Source: Phycisphaerae bacterium (GTDB taxonomy: Bacteria; Planctomycetota; Phycisphaerae; UBA1845). Taken from it: a stretch of 64,000 bases of DNA. The translations under genes and the position numbers were made by a program. Shown piece after piece: positions 2,298 to 33,582 of the stretch. Location: NCBI GenBank assembly GCA_029260165.1, contig JAJDDT010000052.1, forward strand, positions 1-64,000, written 5' to 3'. How positions within the stretch are numbered: the first letter of the stretch is position 1; each line of letters starts with the position of its first letter. The notes under the pieces were generated by a model. It was not told the DNA's origin, searched no databases, and saw nothing but the letters and a program-made list of their open reading frames with translations.

Positions 2298-2442
2298 GAG
2301 CGCCTGGGTAGATTTTCCGGCAAAAAAATGCGTGGAACGCAAACTCTTGTCTGAACAGTACTTCCGGTCGATCGCAGAGGTGGCTGGCCAGGTTTCCCCA
2401 CCCGGGTGAACCTGGTGTTTTGTTGCTTGTCGTTTGGTGGTT

Positions 2443-2525
2443 GGGTGGCCTATGGATTTGGCCCTGGGGGGACTCGAATCCAAACCAGGAATCGAGTCCC
2501 TCACCTCTAAAGAGGTGGGCCACCC
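2443..2525. repeat. REP3 head-to-head palindromic repeat, decayed copy
   Basis: This is an inverted pair of the REP3 family (GGTGGCCCA, variable stem, TTTA loop, TGGG). The right unit (2498-2525) is intact, with arms CACCTC/GAGGTG around a TAAA loop and outer CCCA/TGGG. The left unit carries changes that break its stem. It aligns over the whole length with the better preserved copy at 13764-13845, including the central GAATCCAAACC segment. Confidence 0.8.
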
Positions 2526-2563
2526 AAGTGGGGGTGAGGCGTCATATCATCTGTCATGAAGCT

Positions 2564-3952
2564 CTAGTTCAGGGACCTTGGTATCCATTGGCCGTGGCCG
2601 TTTTGGCCGACGAAATTGTAGTTTTTGACGATTTGGGTTCCACGTGAGAAGGTTTGTTCGGCGAATCCTGCGAGACTCCAACCCTGGAACGGGCTCCAGT
2701 CGCAGTTGGTTTCCATTTTTCGCCAATCGACCTTTTTGGTTTTGGTTGGGTGGATGATGGCGATGTCGGCGTCTGAGCCGACGCGGATGGTGCCTTTTTT
2801 CGGGAACATGCCCATGAGTTTGGCGGGGTTGGTGGAGCATTTGTCGACGAACTGATTGATGGTGATGCGACGCTTGCGGACGCCATGGGTGTAGACGGTG
2901 GGCAGAAGGGTTTCGAGACCCGGCATGCCCATCGGGATTTTGGTGAAGTCGCCTTTCCACATAGATTTCTGCTTCGTGGTGAAGGTGCAGGTGTCGGTGG
3001 AGACGTTGCAGACCTCGCCATCCTGAATTCCCTTCCACAGTCGGTTGATGTCTTTCGGGCGCTTGAGTTGCGGGCAGGTGGCGTACATGTGGCCATCTTT
3101 TTTCCTGAAATTTGAATCGTCGAGAACGAGGTATTGGGCGCAGGTTTCTGCGACGATGTCGACACCGTCGGCTTGTGCTTTTTTGATGAGGTCTGCGCCT
3201 TCTCCGGTGGACATGTGGACGACGAACGTCTTGCCGCCGGTGACTCTTGTCCAGTGGATGACGCGTTCGATGGCTTCTGCTTCGACGAAGTTTGGTCGGG
3301 TGATGGTGTGGAGGTAGGCGCCGTGTTTTTTCATATCGGGTTTGTTGTGGTGTCGATCGATGAGCAGGTCCAGGACGCGTGATGACTCAGCGTGGACGAG
3401 GAGCATGCCGCCGTGCTGTTTGAGGGTTTCGAGGGCGGCGTACATGGCTGCGTCGTCGGACTGCCAGCCCTGGCTCTCATAGATCATGAATTGCTTGAAG
3501 GTCGGGTACCCTTTGTCGATGAATTTTTTGATGTCCCTGCCGTGCTTTTCCCATTTGGTGATGGCAACGTGAAAGGCGTAGTCGATGCAGGCTTTTCCTT
3601 CGGCTTTTGCGTGCCAGTTGTCGACGGCTTGCTGGAGCGATTCGTTGCCGTAGGGGATGGCGAAATCGATGAGACTTGTGACACCACCGCAGGCGGCTGC
3701 CCTGGTTCCGGAGTCGTAGTCGTCGGAGGAGGTTGTTCCGCAGAATGGGAGGGCGAGGTGGACGTGGACGTCGATGCCCCCCGGGATGACGTATCTGCCT
3801 TTGGCGTCGATGATTTTTGCGTCGTTTTTGTTTTCGGCGGTGAGGTTTTTGGCGATGGCGACGACCTTTTCGCCACGGATGCCGACGTCGGTGAGGGTGG
3901 TGTCGTTGGCGGTTACGACCTTTCCGCCTTTGATGATGGTGTCGAGTTTCAT
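2564..3952 (-). CDS. hydA: Dihydropyrimidinase/hydantoinase-family amidohydrolase
   Basis: The 462-residue product belongs to the cyclic amidohydrolases that open dihydropyrimidine or hydantoin rings using a two-zinc centre. The expected metal ligands are visible: DVHVH near residue 61, the lysine of FKQFMIYES (the carboxylated Lys position) near 153, histidines in LLVHAES and FVVHMST, and the aspartate in STDTC. Length is normal for the family. The ATG is preceded by GGAGG at a 7-nt spacing, which supports this start. There is no neighbouring pyrimidine-degradation gene, so the substrate (dihydrouracil, a hydantoin, or another cyclic imide) is not fixed by context. The family is secure; pathway assignment is an inference. 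Confidence 0.9.
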   Translation of the reverse strand: MKLDTIIKGGKVVTANDTTLTDVGIRGEKVVAIAKNLTAENKNDAKIIDAKGRYVIPGGIDVHVHLALPFCGTTSSDDYDSGTRAAACGGVTSLIDFAIPYGNESLQQAVDNWHAKAEGKACIDYAFHVAITKWEKHGRDIKKFIDKGYPTFKQFMIYESQGWQSDDAAMYAALETLKQHGGMLLVHAESSRVLDLLIDRHHNKPDMKKHGAYLHTITRPNFVEAEAIERVIHWTRVTGGKTFVVHMSTGEGADLIKKAQADGVDIVAETCAQYLVLDDSNFRKKDGHMYATCPQLKRPKDINRLWKGIQDGEVCNVSTDTCTFTTKQKSMWKGDFTKIPMGMPGLETLLPTVYTHGVRKRRITINQFVDKCSTNPAKLMGMFPKKGTIRVGSDADIAIIHPTKTKKVDWRKMETNCDWSPFQGWSLAGFAEQTFSRGTQIVKNYNFVGQNGHGQWIPRSLN

Positions 3953-12727: not shown

Positions 12728-13735
12728 GTGGCTGACGTTCTGGAACAATCCGAAGTTGATTCCCTTCTGCAAGCGGTCGAAGCCGGCACGCTTGAGGAGG
12801 ACCATTCCGCAACTTTTGCGCGACTGGAAGACGAGCGCCACCGCGATATTCAGACCTACGATTTCAAGCGCCCCGAGCGTGTCAGCAAGGACCAGATGCG
12901 GGCGTTGGAAAGTCTTCACGAAAGCTTCGCACGAAATTTTGGAGCAGCTTTGTCGGGTTTCCTGCGAACCATCATCGAGGTGCGCGTCGCGACGGCTGAG
13001 CAGTTGACCTACAGCGAATTTATTCACTCGCTACCGAATCCGACCAACTTCAATCTCGTCTCAGCCGAACCGCTTGAAGGGCAGATGTGCCTCGAACTCA
13101 GTCCGCTGATCATTTTCCCCATCATCGATCGTCTTCTGGGAGGGTCGAGCAATGAGACCTTCGTCCCTCAACGACCCTTGACGATGATCGAGTTGAGACT
13201 GGTGCGTCGGATCACCGACCGCGCGTTGCTCAACCTCACCGAGGTCTGGTCGTCCCTCGTCGAGGCGAATTTCAAGCTCGAAGAGGTTGAGAACAACCCG
13301 CACCTCGTCCAAATCGTCGCGCCGAATGAAGTCGTCGTCGTGCTTGGTTTCGAGATCAAGATGGGCAACCGTTCCGGCACGATGAGTTTTTGCATACCAT
13401 TCAACGTCATCGAACCCGTGATGAGCAAATTGGCGACCCAGGGTTGGCTCGCCTACAAGCGTCGCGCGAGCGCTGAAGCCAAAAACGACGAAATCGCCGG
13501 TGAAATCGTTCAAACACAGGTAGACATGACCGCAGTCCTGGCAGAGACGGACATCAATGTTCAGGAACTGCTCAATCTGCAGGTCGGCGACATCATTCAA
13601 ACAAGCAAACCCGCCAACTCGCCGCTGCTGTTGAAGGTCGCCGGCAGACAAGGCTACGCCTGCTCACACGGAAAATACAAAGACCACCGCGCGATAAAAA
13701 TCCTCCGCGAAGCCAAACCCAACGAACGGTTTTAG
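12728..13735 (+). CDS. fliM: Flagellar motor switch protein FliM
   Basis: FliM is a C-ring component that binds phosphorylated CheY and sets the direction of flagellar rotation. The 335-residue product begins at a GTG with the conserved N-terminal LEQSEVDSLL motif (CheY-binding segment). The CheC-like middle domain follows (PLIIFPIIDRLLGGSS) and then the SpoA/FliN-like C-terminal domain, with LLNLQVGDIIQTSKP and VAGRQGYACSHGKYKDHRAIKI. No other flagellar or chemotaxis gene is seen in this window, so the gene stands alone among metabolic genes. It is full length with no sign of decay. Confidence 0.95.
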   Translation: MADVLEQSEVDSLLQAVEAGTLEEDHSATFARLEDERHRDIQTYDFKRPERVSKDQMRALESLHESFARNFGAALSGFLRTIIEVRVATAEQLTYSEFIHSLPNPTNFNLVSAEPLEGQMCLELSPLIIFPIIDRLLGGSSNETFVPQRPLTMIELRLVRRITDRALLNLTEVWSSLVEANFKLEEVENNPHLVQIVAPNEVVVVLGFEIKMGNRSGTMSFCIPFNVIEPVMSKLATQGWLAYKRRASAEAKNDEIAGEIVQTQVDMTAVLAETDINVQELLNLQVGDIIQTSKPANSPLLLKVAGRQGYACSHGKYKDHRAIKILREAKPNERF

Positions 13736-13763
13736 TGCTTCGTCACTCGTCGTTTGATGGTTT

Positions 13764-13845
13764 GGGTGGCCCATGGCTTTAGCCGTGGGGGAGTCGAATC
13801 CAAACCCGGAAACGAGTCCCCCACCTCTAAAGAGGTGGGCCACCC
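13764..13845. repeat. REP3 head-to-head palindromic repeat, intact copy
   Basis: Two REP3 units face each other. The left unit (13764-13790) has GGGTGGCCCA, stem halves ATGGC/GCCGT and a TTTA loop. The right unit (13818-13845) is on the opposite strand, with stem CACCTC/GAGGTG and a TAAA loop. Between them are GAGTCGAATCC and its partial complement. The whole block can fold as one long cruciform. It aligns with 2443-2525 and, for its left half, with 20366-20402. Confidence 0.85.
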
Positions 13846-13934
13846 ATGTGCTGATAATGTCAAACCATCTGTCATGGCGCACCAGGATGCTCCGTCCGAT
13901 GAAACGTCGCCACTTGTGGCACGGCGGGATCAAT

Positions 13935-13959
13935 GTAGCGTCACCCCTCGTGGGTGACG
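13935..13959 (+). repeat. REP1 element (left half of inverted pair)
   Basis: This element has GTAG, then arms CGTCACCC and GGGTGACG around a CTCGT loop. It is paired with an inverted copy at 13990-14014, giving a BIME-like arrangement between fliM and the next gene. Confidence 0.85.
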
Positions 13960-13989
13960 AAAGCACAAGACGACGTCAGCCTGCGATCG

Positions 13990-14014
13990 CGCCGCCCACA
14001 AGGGGCGACGCTAC
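13990..14014 (-). repeat. REP1 element (right half of inverted pair)
   Basis: On the minus strand it reads GTAG, then arms CGTCGCCC and GGGCGGCG around CTTGT. Compared with the standard arm pair, the fourth base of the left arm is unchanged while changes on both sides keep the stem paired (one G-T pair). Confidence 0.83.
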
Positions 14015-14072: not shown

Positions 14073-15035
14073 ATGGATTGGACGCTCAAGAAGGAACAGC
14101 CGTGGATCAGGTTGGCAGCTGCGTTTCTGATTGTCCGCGGGACGCATGATCTGATCATCACAATTCTTTGGTTACGGGCGAACTCGTCACCCGTATTTGG
14201 GGACCTGTGGTTGGCGGAGAATTGGGCCACTCTCGAAACACTACTATTCGTACTGAGTATCTTCGTGCCGGTATTGACGCTCATCCCTGGCATCCTGGTT
14301 TTTATATATCGACAACATGCCAAGAACATTATTATCATCGCATGCGCGGCGATAGGCTTGTCTTATTCTGTCAAGCAACTGCTGGCTTTTCTCGTCTACA
14401 GCAGGCTACTGTCGCTCACCTATGTCAATGCGGTGATTGAATCCTTCATTTTTCAAAGCATCCATATCCCTGTCGCCTGCGTGGCTGTTGGGCTGGTTGT
14501 CGCGCGGCGCAACTTGTCGGGACGACGATTCCTCGAATTAACCGCGATATTTCTGATCGCTGATTGGGGATGCGTGGTTTTCGGCATCACATTCCATGTG
14601 GCCAGGGGACTGATTCTGGAAGGATCGAGCAGCCTGGGACTCTATGCCAACTTGCACACGACCCTTATTGTCGGACTAGCGTTTGCCATCTTCCTTGCCT
14701 CGATCCTCTTGTTGTTCAATCAGCATCGCGGGGTTTTCTGGACGTCTGTCATCGCGGCCTGCGCCATTGTTAGAGGGATGGCTTTTTTCTACGCGCTGCA
14801 TGGTAACTCATGGCGATTTCTGGTGCCCCGCTTTGAAAACCTCGTAAATTCCTCCAGGGTCTACGCAACCATTTTGATGTACCCTGGATTGGTGTGGTTC
14901 GTCTTCAGGCACATCAGGACGGCATCCGATATGAACTGTTGCTCCAACTGCGACTACAACCTCACCGGCAATCTTTCGGGGGTTTGCCCGGAATGCGGAA
15001 CAACCATCGAAGCCACCGCCGCATCCACCGCTTGA
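14073..15035 (+). CDS. Polytopic membrane protein with C-terminal zinc ribbon
   Basis: I do not recognise a named family. The 320-residue product has about seven to eight hydrophobic segments spread over residues 10-290. It ends in a cytoplasmic-looking zinc ribbon, CSNCDYNLTG...GVCPECG, whose CxxC...CxxC cysteines would bind one metal. This kind of C-terminal ribbon on membrane proteins is frequent in planctomycetes. The ATG at 14073 is chosen; in-frame TTG (14055) and GTG (14067) codons lie just upstream and none has a clear Shine-Dalgarno sequence. The gene follows an intergenic block of REP repeats. Confidence 0.75.
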   Translation: MDWTLKKEQPWIRLAAAFLIVRGTHDLIITILWLRANSSPVFGDLWLAENWATLETLLFVLSIFVPVLTLIPGILVFIYRQHAKNIIIIACAAIGLSYSVKQLLAFLVYSRLLSLTYVNAVIESFIFQSIHIPVACVAVGLVVARRNLSGRRFLELTAIFLIADWGCVVFGITFHVARGLILEGSSSLGLYANLHTTLIVGLAFAIFLASILLLFNQHRGVFWTSVIAACAIVRGMAFFYALHGNSWRFLVPRFENLVNSSRVYATILMYPGLVWFVFRHIRTASDMNCCSNCDYNLTGNLSGVCPECGTTIEATAASTA

Positions 15036-24064: not shown

Positions 24065-25173
24065 CAAGCAGGCCAACCCATTTCGCCACATCGGGTGGCC
24101 CACGTCTTCAGACGTGGGGAACAGACGGTAGGGCAGGTGCTCGCACCTGCCGTCACCATCAAATGTTCTTCATTCCAACGCTGCTCCTCACGCTATGCAC
24201 CCTCCCCGCCTGCAACAACGCCCTGCCCCAACCCGACGACAACAACCCCATCACCAAAACAACAACCAAAGGCCCCACCACCCTCACCATCACCACCGAC
24301 AAATCCCAAATGTCCGTCGCCGAAAGACTCGACCTCACCCTCACTATCACCACCGAACCCAACGTTACCATCCATCCGCCCGCCCTCGGAAACGACGTTG
24401 GACCATTCACCATCCACCACCAAAGCCAATTCAAAAAACGACCCGAACCCGACGACAATAACAAATCTGTCTACACACAAACCCACACCCTCGAAACCTT
24501 CACCGCCGACACCCACACCATCCCACCTGTCACCGTCGAATTCACCGACAACCGCGACCCCGACAACCCCGTCCAATCCTCCATCTCATCCGTCCCCTTC
24601 GACATCGAAGTCACCGCACCCACAGAAGCCGACACCGACCCGACCCAATTCCGCGACGTCAAGAACCCCGTGGACCTTCCCACGACCATCAACCTCACAA
24701 TCCTCTACTATGTGCTCGCAGGCCTCGCCATCGCCGCCATCCTCATTTTCGCTCTTTACAAACTCATCAACCGCAAGCGCAAACCCCACCTCGCCCCAAC
24801 CATCCCCGCACACGAGTGGGCCTTCAAACAACTCCGCCTACTCAACAACGCCTGCCTCGTCGAACAAAACCAGACCCACGAGTTCTACTTCCGACTCAGC
24901 ATGATCCTTCGCCAATACATCGAACGACGCTTCGATTTAAACGCCCCCGAACGCACCACCGAAGAATTCCTCGAAGAAATGCGAACCACCGACAAGCTCT
25001 CCCCACAACACAAACGCACCCTCGAACAATTCCTCGCTGCCTGTGACAGGGTCAAGTACGCCCTCTACGAACCACCATCCGACGAAATCGAAAGCGCCTT
25101 CACGGCCGCCGAGGATTTCGTCACCCAAACCATCCCACAACCCACCGACCGATCATCAAGGGAAGCCGCATGA
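24061..25173 (+). CDS. DUF4381-like membrane lipoprotein of the Bat cluster
   Basis: The frame is open from ATG 24061, which overlaps the DUF58 stop. Residues 1-34 are encoded by REP3 and REP2 repeats. They are followed by a lipoprotein-type signal (MFFIPTLLLTLCTLPAC), so ATG 24163 is the alternative start (336 instead of 370 residues). No Shine-Dalgarno sequence precedes 24163. A beta-rich extracytoplasmic domain (TTLTITTDKSQMSVAERLDLTLTI...) comes next, then a transmembrane segment (ILYYVLAGLAIAAILIFALY). The cytoplasmic helical tail (HEWAFKQLRLLNNAC...FYFRLSMILRQYIERRF) resembles DUF4381 proteins, which occur between DUF58 and BatA in these operons. Its stop overlaps the batA start (ATGA). 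The codons are extremely C-rich. Confidence 0.8.
   Translation: MTSRPTHFATSGGPRLQTWGTDGRAGARTCRHHQMFFIPTLLLTLCTLPACNNALPQPDDNNPITKTTTKGPTTLTITTDKSQMSVAERLDLTLTITTEPNVTIHPPALGNDVGPFTIHHQSQFKKRPEPDDNNKSVYTQTHTLETFTADTHTIPPVTVEFTDNRDPDNPVQSSISSVPFDIEVTAPTEADTDPTQFRDVKNPVDLPTTINLTILYYVLAGLAIAAILIFALYKLINRKRKPHLAPTIPAHEWAFKQLRLLNNACLVEQNQTHEFYFRLSMILRQYIERRFDLNAPERTTEEFLEEMRTTDKLSPQHKRTLEQFLAACDRVKYALYEPPSDEIESAFTAAEDFVTQTIPQPTDRSSREAA
24093..24119 (+). repeat. REP3 unit inside 5' end of a bat gene
   Basis: It has GGGTGGCCCA, stem ACGTC/GACGT, a TTCA loop and TGGGG. It lies in frame within the open reading frame that starts at 24061, 8 nt before a REP2 element. Confidence 0.83.
24128..24151 (+). 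repeat. REP2 element inside 5' end of a bat gene
   Basis: GTAG is followed by perfect arms GGCAGGTG/CACCTGCC with loop CTCG. The flank ACCATCAAA after the hairpin is shared with the copy at 28337, so the repeated unit is longer than the hairpin. Confidence 0.87.
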
Positions 25174-26277: not shown

Positions 26278-27279
26278 ATGAACCTCGCATTCGACCATCC
26301 CAACCTCCTCCACCTCCTCTGGCTCACGCCCCTCCTCGCGGGTCTCTACCTCCACGGATTTGCCCAAAAACGAAAAGCACTCCACCGCTTCGCCACCCTC
26401 AACCTGCTCAACACTCTCGTCCCGCGCGTCAGCCACACCCGCCAAAAAATCAGGTCCATCTGCGTCATCCTCGCAACCATCGCCCTCATTTTCGCCCTCA
26501 CCGGACCGCGATGGGGAAAACACTGGGAAAAACTCGAACGCAAAGGCATCGACATCATCTTCGTCCTCGACGTCTCCAATTCCATGCTCGCCGAAGACGT
26601 CGCTCCCTCAAGACTCGAACGCGCCAAGCTCGACGTCGCCGACCTCATCACCATCCTCCCAGGCGACCGCGTCGGACTCGTCACCTTCGCCGGACAAGCC
26701 GCCGTCGCCTGCCCGCTCACCATCAACTACAGCGCCTTCCGCATCGCCCTCCAAAACGTCACCACCCGATCATCACAAAGAGGCGGAACACAAATCGGAG
26801 ACGCCATCCGACTCGCCGCCGCCAGCTTCACCGACAAAGTCAAAGACCACAAAGCCATCATCGTCATCTCAGACGGCGAAGAAACCGACGACAGCTACGC
26901 CGCCCAGGCCGCACACATCGCCTTCGACGAAAAAGGCATCCGCCTGTTCACCATTGGCACCGGCGACGCCCGGCAAGGCGGACGCATCCCCATCGTCCAA
27001 AACAACCAACGCCTCTACCTCACCCACCAAGGCCGGGAAATCTGGACCAAACTCCATCCCCAGCTCCTTCAGGAAATTGCCTTCTCCGCAGACGGCGGAT
27101 ACTTCGCACACACCGACCTTCGAGAGGTCTACGACCGCATCGCCGACAAAATCCAGCAACGAACCTACGAGTCACAACGAAAGGAACTCCGCTACCCACG
27201 ATTCCAATGGTTCGCCGCATTGGCACTATCATTACTCATGATCGAAACCCTGATGACCGACCGAAAGACAACATCATGA
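26278..27279 (+). CDS. batB: BatB-type VWA membrane protein
   Basis: The 333-residue paralogue of BatA has the same layout: hydrophobic segments near 8-25 and 58-76, a VWA metal site DVSNS at residues 98-102, ILPGDRVGLVTFAGQAA, IVISDGEETDD and a C-terminal membrane segment. It starts 13 nt after batA and ends in an ATGA overlap with the next frame. It is intact and carries no repeat insertion. Confidence 0.92.
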   Translation: MNLAFDHPNLLHLLWLTPLLAGLYLHGFAQKRKALHRFATLNLLNTLVPRVSHTRQKIRSICVILATIALIFALTGPRWGKHWEKLERKGIDIIFVLDVSNSMLAEDVAPSRLERAKLDVADLITILPGDRVGLVTFAGQAAVACPLTINYSAFRIALQNVTTRSSQRGGTQIGDAIRLAAASFTDKVKDHKAIIVISDGEETDDSYAAQAAHIAFDEKGIRLFTIGTGDARQGGRIPIVQNNQRLYLTHQGREIWTKLHPQLLQEIAFSADGGYFAHTDLREVYDRIADKIQQRTYESQRKELRYPRFQWFAALALSLLMIETLMTDRKTTS

Positions 27280-28286
27280 AATGCAGGAAAGACCTCGAAA
27301 ACGTCGCGACCAATGTAGCGTCACCCCGTCATTCTTCTGTAGCGTCACCCCTTGTGGGTGACGAGAAGGCAACAAGACCGCCGGTCAACCAAACCCAACA
27401 TGAGGCAATGAATGTAGGGCAGGTCGCGACCTGCCGTATTCAAACACTCATCGCGATACTCGCGCTGACAATCTCCATCCACCCGGCCATCGCCCAATCC
27501 CCAAACCCACACACCCTCGTCAAACAAGCCAACCAACTCTACAAAACCCAAGACTACCAATCCGCCCTCAATTCCTACAACCAAGCCAACCTCGCCAAAC
27601 CCGATTCCCCGGAAATCGCCTACAACCGCGCACTCGCCCATTACAAACTCAACCAACTCACACAGGCCAACAACCTCCTCAACCAGGCCCTTTCCACCCG
27701 CGACAAATCCCTCGAAGCCAAAATCAAGTACAACCTCGGAAATGTCGCCTACGCCCAGGCCCTGGAAAACCAGGAAAACCCCAAGCAAGCCATCAACCAC
27801 CTCAAAACCGCCATCACCCGCTACCGCGACGCTCGCGACATCAACCCGACCGACGAGGACGCCCTCGCCAACATCAACTCCGCCCAGTCCCTCATCAAAA
27901 GACTCATCCAGCAACAAAACCAGGAACAGCAGCAAGACCAAAACAAAGACCAGGAACAAGACCAAAAAGACGAGCAGGAACAGGAACAATCAAAAGACGG
28001 CGACCAGGAGAAACAGGATCAAAAACAACAAGACCAACAACAGGAAAACCAGGACCAGCAAAAAGACCAGGAAGGAAAAAAGCAGGAACAAAGCGACCAA
28101 CAAAACCAGCAGTCATCAGAAGAACAGGATCAGCCACCCCAACAAGCAGAACCCCGCGAAGTCAAAATGACCCCCGAACAGGCCGAAAGACTCCTCCAGG
28201 CTGTCCGCGACAAGGAACGAAATCGCCAAGACGAAAAAACCAGACTCAGACGCGTCGGCCGTCGCCCGGTCCTCAAGGATTGGTAA
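27276..28286 (+). CDS. batC: BatC-type TPR protein with Gln/Glu/Asp-rich tail
   Basis: From ATG 27276, which overlaps the batB stop (ATGA), the frame gives 336 residues. Residues 1-44 are encoded largely by REP1 repeats. A Met at 27408 then begins a signal peptide (MNVGQVATCRIQTLIAILALTISIHPAIA) whose first residues come from a REP2 element. If translation starts at 27408 the product has 292 residues. The mature part has about three tetratricopeptide repeats (LYKTQDYQSALNSYNQANLAKP...). A roughly 90-residue stretch of Gln, Asp, Glu and Lys follows and a basic end (RLRRVGRRPVLKDW). TPR proteins of this type sit between BatB and BatD and are thought to be periplasmic partners. Confidence 0.83.
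   Translation: MKCRKDLENVATNVASPRHSSVASPLVGDEKATRPPVNQTQHEAMNVGQVATCRIQTLIAILALTISIHPAIAQSPNPHTLVKQANQLYKTQDYQSALNSYNQANLAKPDSPEIAYNRALAHYKLNQLTQANNLLNQALSTRDKSLEAKIKYNLGNVAYAQALENQENPKQAINHLKTAITRYRDARDINPTDEDALANINSAQSLIKRLIQQQNQEQQQDQNKDQEQDQKDEQEQEQSKDGDQEKQDQKQQDQQQENQDQQKDQEGKKQEQSDQQNQQSSEEQDQPPQQAEPREVKMTPEQAERLLQAVRDKERNRQDEKTRLRRVGRRPVLKDW
27315..27363 (+). repeat. REP1 composite: truncated unit plus full unit
   Basis: A truncated REP1 (GTAGCGTCACCCC then GTCATTCTTCT, no right arm) is followed directly by a full REP1 at 27339-27363. The same composite, with four differences, recurs at 30198-30246. Both are read in the same phase by the enclosing frames. Confidence 0.85.
27414..27435 (+). 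repeat. REP2 variant inside the batC signal peptide
   Basis: GTAG is followed by arms GGCAGGT/ACCTGCC with loop CGCG, two bases shorter than the other copies. It encodes the residues Val-Gly-Gln-Val-Ala-Thr-Cys of the signal-peptide amino-terminal region. Confidence 0.8.
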
Positions 28287-28287
28287 A

Positions 28288-30159
28288 ATGCGACAAACCA
28301 TGACCAGGACGACAAGATCAGGCAACAGAGCAAACGGTAGGGCAGGTGCTCGCGCCTGCCGCGACCATCAAACGCCATCAACGAAACACCCCCAATGTAG
28401 CGCCACCCCTTGTGTGTGGCGGGAACACCAGACGATACCAACAAGCTCCAACCGCCACATGTGCGTCAAAACCGCATTGCTCATCGCCACAATGCTCACC
28501 GCCTGCACCCAGGCAGCCAATGTCTCCTTCACCATCTCGAAAAAGAAATCCTACGTCGGCGTCCCCGTCCAGCTCCAGATCAGCATCGAAAACGCAGAAG
28601 ACCACACCCCACCATCCTTCCCCGACATCCCCAACGCCGACGTCCGCACGGCCCCCCCCTCATCCTCACACATGACCACCATCGTCAATGGCCAAATGGA
28701 ACGAAAATCAACGACAACCTACACCTCCCAGCCACAAACCATCACCGTCAAAAAATCCGACAACAACGACCTCCTCTCCGTCGAACTCACAGGACAGAAA
28801 AACTCCGTCTACATCGGCGAATCCATCAACGTCACACTCGAAATCCGGCTCAAACAATTCAACAAAAACCGCGTCAAACTCGACTTCAGAGATATGTGGT
28901 CCACCATCAACCAAAACGCCAGCACATGGGGACAGTTCGCAAGCCTCGTCAACACAAGAAACAACAACATCAAAGTCCGCACCACAAGACGCAACACCAA
29001 CGGACAACAACACACCTACTTCGTCTATTCGGTCGAAAACCAGTTCTGGCCCGAACGACCCGGAAAACTCGAAGGTGGAAACATCACCATCGTCGCCAAC
29101 TACCCCCTGAGCGTCTCACGAAACCGCTTCTCCATCCTGAGAAGACTCTCCATCGACCGCGCCAAACCCGTCTCCGCCACCGTCAAAGACCCCGACATCA
29201 CCGTCAAATCACCACCCACCCAAAACCAACCCGCCATCTTCCGTAGCGCCGTCGGAAACTACACCATCGCAACCACCGCAACACCCACCGTCGCCAACGT
29301 CGGCGACCCCATCACCATCACCCTGAGCATCACCGGCAATGGCCGACTAGACCTCCTCCAACCCCCACCCCTCACCGATCAACCAAGCCTCACCAACGAC
29401 TTCCGAGTCCCCGACGAACCGCTCGCCGGAGTCGTCAATGGACAAACCAAAACCTTCACCCAATCCATCCGCGCCACCCGCGACGACATCACCGAAATCC
29501 CGCCCATCAAATTCGCCTACTTTGATCCTGACATCGAACAATACGTCACCATACAATCCGACCCCATCCCCATCTCCATCAAACAACAAACCCAACTCCC
29601 CGTCACCCAAATGGTCGAAGGATCACTCACCCCCTCCATCACCAACCTCACCGCAAGAACCGACGGACTTCTCGCCAACATCGACGACCCAGGCCTCCTG
29701 CTAACCACCCAAACCGTCACCATCACCCCGACCACACTCACCATCCTCGGCAGCCTCCCCATCCTCTACACCGCCACCCTCCTCTTCCAGTCCAACCGCC
29801 GAAAACTCAAAAACAACATCGCCCTCGCCCGCAGAAAATCCGCCAAACGAATCGCCAACCACAAACTCGCTAACGCAATCAACACCACCGACCCAACCGC
29901 CGCAGCCAACCTCGCCGCAAGCACCCTCACCACCTACATCGCCGACCGCTGCAATCTCCCCGCCGCAGGCCTCACCCGCACCGACGCCGTCACCCATCTC
30001 CAAAACCGATTCGTGACCGAATCCCTCATCACCGACATCGACCAGCTATTGGAAGAATGCGAACACATCCAGTACGCCCCCTCCACTTCCGCCGCCCAAA
30101 ACATCACCACCCGCACCCAACAATGCATCACCCGCCTCGAAAAGGAATACCTCAAATGA
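28288..30159 (+). CDS. batD: BatD-like (oxygen tolerance) membrane protein
   Basis: The frame starts at ATG 28288, which has AAGGA at an 8-nt spacing, just after batC. Residues 1-57 cover REP2 and REP1 repeats. The signal peptide (MCVKTALLIATMLTACTQA) begins at residue 58 (ATG 28459, no Shine-Dalgarno sequence). The mature protein has three or more beta-sandwich repeats typical of BatD (VSFTISKKKSYVGVPVQLQISIENAED; VELTGQKNSVYIGESINVTLEI; YTIATTATPTVANVGDPITITLSITG). A transmembrane segment lies near residue 485 (TILGSLPILYTATLLF), then a helical cytoplasmic tail. Total 623 residues, normal for the family. Composition is very rich in C-ending codons and Thr, Asn and Pro. Confidence 0.87.
   Translation: MRQTMTRTTRSGNRANGRAGARACRDHQTPSTKHPQCSATPCVWREHQTIPTSSNRHMCVKTALLIATMLTACTQAANVSFTISKKKSYVGVPVQLQISIENAEDHTPPSFPDIPNADVRTAPPSSSHMTTIVNGQMERKSTTTYTSQPQTITVKKSDNNDLLSVELTGQKNSVYIGESINVTLEIRLKQFNKNRVKLDFRDMWSTINQNASTWGQFASLVNTRNNNIKVRTTRRNTNGQQHTYFVYSVENQFWPERPGKLEGGNITIVANYPLSVSRNRFSILRRLSIDRAKPVSATVKDPDITVKSPPTQNQPAIFRSAVGNYTIATTATPTVANVGDPITITLSITGNGRLDLLQPPPLTDQPSLTNDFRVPDEPLAGVVNGQTKTFTQSIRATRDDITEIPPIKFAYFDPDIEQYVTIQSDPIPISIKQQTQLPVTQMVEGSLTPSITNLTARTDGLLANIDDPGLLLTTQTVTITPTTLTILGSLPILYTATLLFQSNRRKLKNNIALARRKSAKRIANHKLANAINTTDPTAAANLAASTLTTYIADRCNLPAAGLTRTDAVTHLQNRFVTESLITDIDQLLEECEHIQYAPSTSAAQNITTRTQQCITRLEKEYLK
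28337..28360 (+). repeat. REP2 element inside the batD 5' region
   Basis: GTAG is followed by arms GGCAGGTG/CGCCTGCC (one G-T pair) and loop CTCG. The translated phase is the same as in the copy at 24128 (Gly-Arg-Ala-Gly-Ala-Arg). Confidence 0.86.
28397..28421 (+). repeat. REP1 variant inside the batD 5' region
   Basis: GTAG is followed by arms CGCCACCC/GTGTGGCG around CTTGT. The third base of the left arm and its partner both differ from the standard copy (C-G in place of T-A), keeping the stem; one mismatch lies near the loop. Confidence 0.8.
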
Positions 30160-31127
30160 CGCCATCAACAATACATCCAGGATCGCACCAACCCAATGTC
30201 GCGCCACCCCGTCACTCTTCTGTAGCGTCACCCCTTGTGGGTGACGAGAAAACCAACCACGCCAATCAAAGCCAACCCGTAGGGCCTGGGTGCCCCACGT
30301 CTTTAGACGTGGGGTATGGATTCGCACGACCAACGACCGTCATCCAATCAATCATCATCCTCACGCTCTTCACCACCCACCTGTCCGCCAACACCCCCGA
30401 CCCCCAACAAACCCTCGCCAACGCACTCACCCAATTCGACAACGCCACCGAACTGATGCGCACCGACCCCGACAAAGCCCAAACCGCCTTCAACAACGCC
30501 GCCAGGGAATTCCAATCCCTCATCGACAACGGACACCGAAACACCCACCTCTACTACAACCTCGCAAACACCCACCTCAGACTCGGGCAACTCGGACCCG
30601 CCATCGCCAACTACCGCCGCGCCCTCAAGATCAACCCCGCCAACGAACGCGCAAAAGCCAACCTCAACTTCACAAGAACACTCACGCGAGATCAGTTCAA
30701 AACCACAGGAACCCACGCACTAAAACAAACACTCCTCTTCTGGCACTACAACACCACCGCCCAATCCCGACGCAACTTCGCCATCATCCTCTACGCCTCA
30801 TTCTGGCTCATCCTCGCCACCAAAACCATCCGCCCCAAAACCCGCATCACCTACCCCGCCACCATCACGGGACTCGTCACCCTCGCACTCGCCATCTCAC
30901 TTTCCATCTCCATCCCAAACCAGTCACGACTCACCGGCGGCGTCATCACCGCAAACCAGGTCACCGTCCGAAAGGGCAATGGGCAATCCTACGCACCGCA
31001 ATTCGATCAGCCACTCCACGAAGGCACCGAATTCGCCATCCTCGAACAACGCAGCAATTGGCTCCACATCCAACTCCCCGACAACAACACCGGCTGGATC
31101 CAGTCAAAACACACCGAACTCTTCTGA
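30156..31127 (+). CDS. batE: BatE-type TPR/SH3 membrane protein
   Basis: ATG 30156 overlaps the batD stop and has AAGGA at a 9-nt spacing. It opens a frame of 323 residues whose first 51 codons run through REP1 and REP3 repeats. The likely signal segment follows (ARPTTVIQSIIILTLFTTHLSA). The only canonical closer start is a GTG at 30309, inside the REP3 hairpin. The mature protein has TPR motifs (LYYNLANTHLRLGQLGPAIANYRRALKINPANERA), two membrane segments (RRNFAIILYASFWLIL and TITGLVTLALAISLSI), and a C-terminal SH3-like domain (VTVRKGNGQSYAPQF...WLHIQLPDNNTGWIQ). This order is typical of BatE. It is the last gene of the operon. Confidence 0.85.
   Translation: MTPSTIHPGSHQPNVAPPRHSSVASPLVGDEKTNHANQSQPVGPGCPTSLDVGYGFARPTTVIQSIIILTLFTTHLSANTPDPQQTLANALTQFDNATELMRTDPDKAQTAFNNAAREFQSLIDNGHRNTHLYYNLANTHLRLGQLGPAIANYRRALKINPANERAKANLNFTRTLTRDQFKTTGTHALKQTLLFWHYNTTAQSRRNFAIILYASFWLILATKTIRPKTRITYPATITGLVTLALAISLSISIPNQSRLTGGVITANQVTVRKGNGQSYAPQFDQPLHEGTEFAILEQRSNWLHIQLPDNNTGWIQSKHTELF
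30198..30246 (+). repeat. REP1 composite: truncated unit plus full unit
   Basis: A second copy of the composite at 27315-27363. The truncated part begins GTCG in place of GTAG and has CGCCACCCC; the full REP1 is at 30222-30246. It is read in the same phase as the 27315 copy. Confidence 0.85.
30288..30314 (+). repeat. REP3 unit inside the batE 5' region
   Basis: It has GGGTGCCCCA, stem ACGTC/GACGT, a TTTA loop and GGGG. It is preceded by GTAGGGCCT (30279-30287), which looks like the foot of a REP2 element joined to REP3. Confidence 0.82.
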
Positions 31128-33299: not shown

Positions 33300-33448
33300 A
33301 ATCTGTCGCTCCAATGAGTTGAATTGGTACCTCGGCGAGTATACACCACGAATCGGCAACGACCAGTCCGTCGCAGCGAACGCAGTTAATCAGAAAGAAG
33401 GAATCCGCCACCGAAAGAACGATCCAACACCCGTTTCACGAATAAATC

Positions 33449-33472
33449 GTAGGGCAGGTGCTCGCACCTGCC
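33449..33472 (+). repeat. REP2 element
   Basis: GTAG is followed by perfect arms GGCAGGTG/CACCTGCC with loop CTCG, identical in the hairpin to the copy at 24128. It lies in the 283-base spacer between two minus-strand genes, which otherwise shows only a run of nine or so cytosines (33481-33490). Confidence 0.87.
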
Positions 33473-33582
33473 GCCACTATCCCCCCCCCACCGCAAACTC
33501 GGCGAACACCAACGACGACCATTGTCGCCATCGCCAGCCGTCCTCCCGATGACAAAAAGCCTGGCTGACAGCCCGCCCGGTA

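Follow-up and report, generated by a model that had tools for sequence, protein, structure and literature searches.

A REP3 REPIN inside a 148-bp element with IS630-like arms, beside a separate REP1 REPIN, behind fliM in a Phycisphaerae genome

The window analysed here, a stretch of 64,000 nucleotides, belongs to a Phycisphaerae genome of 4.43 Mb in 119 contigs. Between fliM and a membrane-protein-like gene, it contains a block of inverted repeats with the following features.

12728..13735, + strand: fliM, an open reading frame matching Pfam FliM (220 bits) and FliMN_C, with its TAG stop at 13733-13735
13735..13882, + strand: 148-bp palindromic element with IS630-like arms, a putative MITE, delimited by own-genome copies and by comparison of its arms with an IS630 end
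13735..13763, + strand: left outer arm of the 148-bp element, with 15 genome matches at no more than 3 mismatches, none of them farther than about 60 bp from a REP3 arm
13764..13845, no strand assigned: REP3 REPIN, a head-to-head pair including its palindromic edges, from arm search and folding
13766..13789, + strand: REP3 arm A, foot GTGG followed by a hairpin, from pattern scan
13820..13843, - strand: REP3 arm B, foot GTGG, 8-bp stem and loop of 4, from pattern scan and folding
13846..13882, + strand: right outer arm of the 148-bp element, from the flanks of own-genome REP3 pairs
13935..14014, no strand assigned: REP1 REPIN of 80 bp, outside the 148-bp element, from pattern scan and folding
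13935..13959, + strand: REP1 arm, foot GTAG, 8-bp stem and loop of 5, from pattern scan and folding
13990..14014, - strand: REP1 arm, foot GTAG, 8-bp stem and loop of 5, from pattern scan and folding
14073..15035, + strand: membrane-protein-like gene downstream of the block, an open reading frame whose match in the congener G001 starts at 14073; it has no Pfam or NCBIfam match
2415..2564, + strand: second copy of the 148-bp element in the window, 150 bp, from repeat search

The dinucleotides flanking the 148-bp element are TA on the left (13733-13734) and CA on the right (13883-13884). Within-window scans with two patterns gave four matches each, against 0.00 expected. The initial annotation had placed a head-to-head REP3 pair (13764-13845) and an inverted REP1 pair (13935-13959 and 13990-14014) between fliM and a membrane-protein gene, and both pairs were recovered at that position, with the REP3 arms at 13766-13789 (+) and 13820-13843 (-) and GTAG outermost on both REP1 arms. 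It missed the outward continuation of the repeat from the REP3 pair to 13735 and 13882. Its description of the layout as BIME-like holds insofar as two REPINs of two REP families are present; it was incomplete, as the REP3 pair forms the core of a larger, IS630-armed element. The block is a mosaic of two mobile repeats, both of known kinds.

REP3 and REP1 are each found in many copies in the genome. Strict patterns matched 91 REP3 arms and 146 REP1 arms genome-wide, and neither pattern had a match when read backwards. Of these strict sites, the own-genome loci analysed include 89 of 91 for REP3 (distinct contexts being counted) and 57 of 146 for REP1. A looser search of these loci listed 146 elements in total: for REP3, 35 pairs (77–79 bp), 41 singles and 5 other arrangements; for REP1, 5 pairs (80 bp), 55 singles and 5 elements in direct order. 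Paired blocks, whose absence from the genome would by the initial annotation's own account have spoken against it, therefore recur. Most REP1s in the genome are single, so that a REP1 pair such as the one in the window is uncommon. Every one of the 35 REP3 pairs combines an A arm of the CATGG type with a B arm of the CCTC type, and in all five REP1 pairs a TCACCCC arm is combined with a TCGCCCC arm. By a simple gene model, called genes contain 7 of the 146 listed elements, and no position relative to genes could be assigned to 12 others at the edges of loci; the repeats are mostly intergenic.

Each REP consists of a GTRG foot followed by a hairpin. In both pairs of the block the REPs are inverted with the foot outermost, and both are REPINs, or BIME units. 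Single-stranded DNA folds of the two pairs are more stable than those of 200 shuffled sequences (z −7.36 for REP3 and −3.83 for REP1). Folded singly, REP3 arm B and both REP1 arms form an 8-bp stem behind the 4-nt foot, with a loop of 4 or 5, and either pair taken whole also forms a single long hairpin. In 160 of the 163 distinct REP3 arms drawn from all genomes compared, the three variable inner stem pairs are all complementary, against a mean of 53 and a maximum of 72 after shuffling. Complementarity holds for 14 of the 17 REP3 stem types, and the variable stem pairs covary. This indicates that the single-arm hairpin is conserved, as expected of RAYT substrates.

Several further REP sets were seen. 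A third REP-like family, GTAGGGCAGGTGCTCGCACCTGCC, occurs in the window at 24119-24163, 28328-28372 and 33440-33484, and also near one of the RAYT genes described below (RAYT-B). At other junctions in the window, the genes of G001 are kept at 71–85% DNA identity and the repeats at several junctions differ; at 27268-27528, 28291-28495 and 30164-30400, the REP sets between conserved genes differ from those of G001, a sign of rapid turnover. Another relative, G023, carries many REP1 pairs (L350) built from the same two arm types, which measure 63 bp instead of 80 because their spacer is shorter. An exact REP3 stretch also lies at the edge of a 5.2-kb contig binned as Mariprofundaceae (L318; JAUZQS010000090.1), possibly through a binning error.

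A BLAST search of the block against its own genome gave matches of up to about 150 bp, and the flanks of own-genome REP3 pairs contain outer arms on both sides. Calling thresholds for arms were set at the 99% level obtained with 400 reversed controls. On this basis, 32 of the 35 REP3 pairs carry one or two arms: both in 16, the left alone in 9 and the right alone in 7; the remaining 3 have none. Arms were called at 14 of the 41 single REP3s, leaving 27 without, and at none of the five REP1 pairs and 3 of the 55 REP1 singles, the five direct-order REP1 sites being left out of the scoring. The element is short, non-coding and multi-copy, as MITEs are, with 18 listed rows (one locus twice) of 99–229 bp. 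In these 18 rows, the left flank has T at −2 in 14 and A at −1 in 9, the right flank has T at +1 in 13 and A at +2 in 12, and the adjoining base pairs are mostly TA or TG/CA on either side. No target duplication was detected at the outer ends of 17 copies by a test that is blind to TA. Rfam gave five matches at E-values up to 1, all to microRNA precursors and none at the gathering score. At five loci (L210, L228, L233, L226 and L008), locus-specific tandem units of about 16–20 bp lie between REP3 arm B and the right outer arm.

The outer arms appear to be similar to an end of an IS630-family transposon that this genome also contains. Only two IS630 matches were found in this genome, one of them with two internal stops. 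The partial product at L010 scores 60.2 bits against the NCBIfam IS630 model, below its cut-off of 100, and 48.4 bits against Pfam DDE_3, above its cut-off of 28.6. L331 holds the 3' end of this transposase gene, and both copies end in GTGACAAAGC[A/T]CTAG. Compared by eye with the one end of this IS630 that was seen, that of L331, the element behind fliM matches 13 of 15 bases on its left side and 9 of 15 on its right. By eye, the inverted ends of the second IS630, L257, are bounded by CTAG but differ from these in sequence. The pattern CTAGTGCTYYGTYA has 60 matches in 13 of 40 genomes, the window's own included, and is most frequent in G005 (19) and G022 (14); its backward-read control has 17, so single matches in a genome may be due to chance. 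IS630-family elements reportedly prefer the TA within CTAG, according to the title of one paper. The TA before the element is part of the fliM stop codon. Insertion at TA with duplication of the TA is described for this family (PMC2170065).

In the relatives, arms and REP core appear by eye to be separable. A survey of cores comprised 28 rows, 15 with a partner end and 13 without one. Automatic core labels were crude ('none' in 9 rows, 'GTGS' in 6), some of the 'none' rows holding REP-like hairpins by eye, and core types were therefore assigned by eye. On this basis, G011 has a 65-bp copy without a core and a 153-bp copy with one, their arms being nearly the same; G023 has a 79-bp copy without a REP; and in G005, G019, G020 and G021 the core belongs to another or a related type of REP. 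An exact REP3 stretch was found at 25 sites, 23 of them from Phycisphaerae MAG OFTM250, with a left arm at 4 of 25 and a right arm at 5 of 24; the null rate is 1.2% for a 50-nt window, and is higher for the right arm, whose window is longer.

These observations bear on two alternative accounts of the arms. The arms could be part of the REP3 unit itself, a larger REPIN moved whole by a RAYT, with the likeness to IS630 due to chance or to functionless shared descent. The genome does contain RAYT genes, no target duplication was detected, and the own-genome arm matches always lie beside REP3. This account is nevertheless unlikely, given relatives that have arms with no REP core or with other cores, REP3s that are often armless, and an IS630 gene that ends in the same CTAGTGC sequence. 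Alternatively, the REP core could have been born from the central palindrome of a MITE and adopted later by RAYTs. By eye, the centre of the 65-bp core-free copy, GGGTGCCACCC, is near to two collapsed REP feet, and several cores have common GGTG...CACC edges. Yet that copy may be a deletion product, armless REP3s are common, and the REP3-class repeats flanking RAYT genes lack recognised arms, and we consider such an origin very unlikely.

Five Y1_Tnp matches were found in the genome. One of the genes, RAYT-B (L011), lies beside a ruvC-like gene and scores 93.6 bits against NCBIfam REP_Tyr_transpos (cut-off 80). REP3-class repeats bound it on both sides, having the foot, the outer stem and the following bases in common with REP3. 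Their inner stem differs from that of REP3, and RAYT-B is thus a candidate partner of REP3 by likeness only. In G001, RAYT-B is found at the same place with similar flanks. A fragment at L012:1390-1714 (G000:C40) holds a 79-codon open reading frame between a REP3 and an inverted REP3, like an internal deletion product; by eye, the frame resembles the start of RAYT-B.

RAYT-A (L009, G000:C98:61427-61768) is bounded by REP1 on both sides, as is its counterpart in G001, L160. Movement of this REP1-flanked RAYT between the two congeners was considered and ruled out by flank comparison, as both copies sit between the same two genes. L160 is an open frame that scores 76.5 bits against REP_Tyr_transpos, just below the cut-off of 80. 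RAYT-A contains an internal TAG before its C-terminal part and looks broken, so REP1 may be orphaned in the window's genome. REPtrons are reported not to appear to move as a unit (PMC6006769), and the retention of both RAYTs at their places in G001 agrees with that statement.

The first base of the 148-bp element is the last base of the fliM TAG stop. The FliM orthologue in G001 is 92% identical over residues 1-335, has the same length and ends in TGA; that FliM has not changed in length favours insertion at the native stop. In G001, the intergenic DNA behind fliM has no alignment to the window and holds an extra gene. Among the relatives, 35 had a FliM match and 29 a locus, one of which was too short and was dropped; in all 28 examined, REP3, REP1 and the arms are absent from the 600 nt after fliM (one locus has 458 bases in all). 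Genes called with a simple hexamer model end on the element's first base at 13 of 49 distinct own-genome element ends (11 TAG and 2 TAA). One further gene ends a base further into the element, and no other offset between −10 and +60 is seen more than once. The element ends read YTAG, and one in three frames entering an element is closed by this stop. Part of the excess may therefore stem from stops that the element itself provides, and not from targeting of stop codons.

A selected role for the block, as a terminator or a stabiliser of the 3' end of fliM mRNA, must also be weighed. Immediately behind the stop codon, the RNA forms a very stable fold (z −6.94), and REP3 pairs lie closer to gene stops than to starts (median 58 versus 130 nt). 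The stability of the fold makes an effect on fliM mRNA possible, and the data give no sign of selection for one. Termination, one of the roles named by the initial annotation, gains no support: between 13600 and 14200, no intrinsic terminator with a GC-rich stem and a T tract was found (0 sites versus 0.6 in shuffled sequences), and no sigma-70-like promoter. The block is also missing behind fliM in all of the relatives examined. Codirectional, convergent and divergent gaps hold 21, 8 and 6 of the 35 REP3 pairs, against 67, 18 and 27 of 112 background gaps, so that placement relative to genes is only weakly tilted. Selection for such a role thus has a low probability.

Taken together, 13735-13882 is probably an IS630-type MITE carrying a REP3 REPIN, and 13935-14014 a separate, plain REP1 REPIN. 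The fixed length and arm types of the pairs, the association of arms with REP3 pairs (32/35) and not with REP1 pairs (0/5), the IS630-like ends, the separability of arms and core and the fliM locus empty in 28/28 relatives argue for this reading. Against it stand the 9/15 match of the right end, TA and CA flanks that are not a clean duplication, and the position of all 15 own-genome arm matches beside REP3. An IS630-family DDE transposase would have inserted the 148-bp element at the TA of the fliM stop. The first base of the element, G, would then complete the TAG, so FliM would keep its length. By analogy with published RAYTs, the RAYTs would act on the REPs as single-stranded hairpins, and a change in fliM mRNA, should there be one, is presumed to be incidental.

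More tentatively, the element may belong to two systems at once. An IS630 transposase would move the 148 bp as double-stranded DNA via its ends, and a RAYT would act on the core as single-stranded DNA hairpins. Stop codons would offer a harmless niche, because the first base of the element restores TAG, and several REPIN cores would hitchhike in IS630 MITEs of this bacterial family. We regard this fuller scheme as possible but doubtful.

Because RAYT genes stay in place, the spread of REPs calls for an explanation. If REPINs ride in IS630-type MITEs, a second and better understood transposase would explain part of REP dispersal. In addition, placement at stop codons would explain why many of these repeats begin exactly at gene ends. 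What is unusual about the locus is that a REPIN is nested in an element which has IS630-like arms and starts on a stop codon. Within the limited literature collection searched, no title or abstract opening dealt with REPs inside IS630 MITEs.

Three known systems are comparable. The REPINs or BIMEs of E. coli, Pseudomonas and Stenotrophomonas, with their RAYTs, have the same GT(A/G)G foot and palindrome, the same inverted pairs and probably also, in common with this genome, a positionally stable RAYT gene flanked by matching REPs. In contrast, the REP3 pair described here usually lies inside arms resembling an IS630 end, and the inner stems of REP3-class repeats differ between RAYT flanks and dispersed copies. 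The IS630-derived MITEs Correia and RUP (PMC2817692) are likewise short palindromic units, with IS630-type ends and a TA target that the present element probably shares. The present element differs in having a REPIN core, and no close core-free copy was found in its own genome. The closest precedent for the nesting appears to be the GTAG-15 dimers of Anabaena variabilis, which are REP dimers inserted within longer palindromes (PMC3733652). As reported for Anabaena, the palindrome is not linked to an insertion sequence and is not found without REPs, whereas the arms behind fliM resemble an IS630 end, and some relatives have such arms with no REP core.
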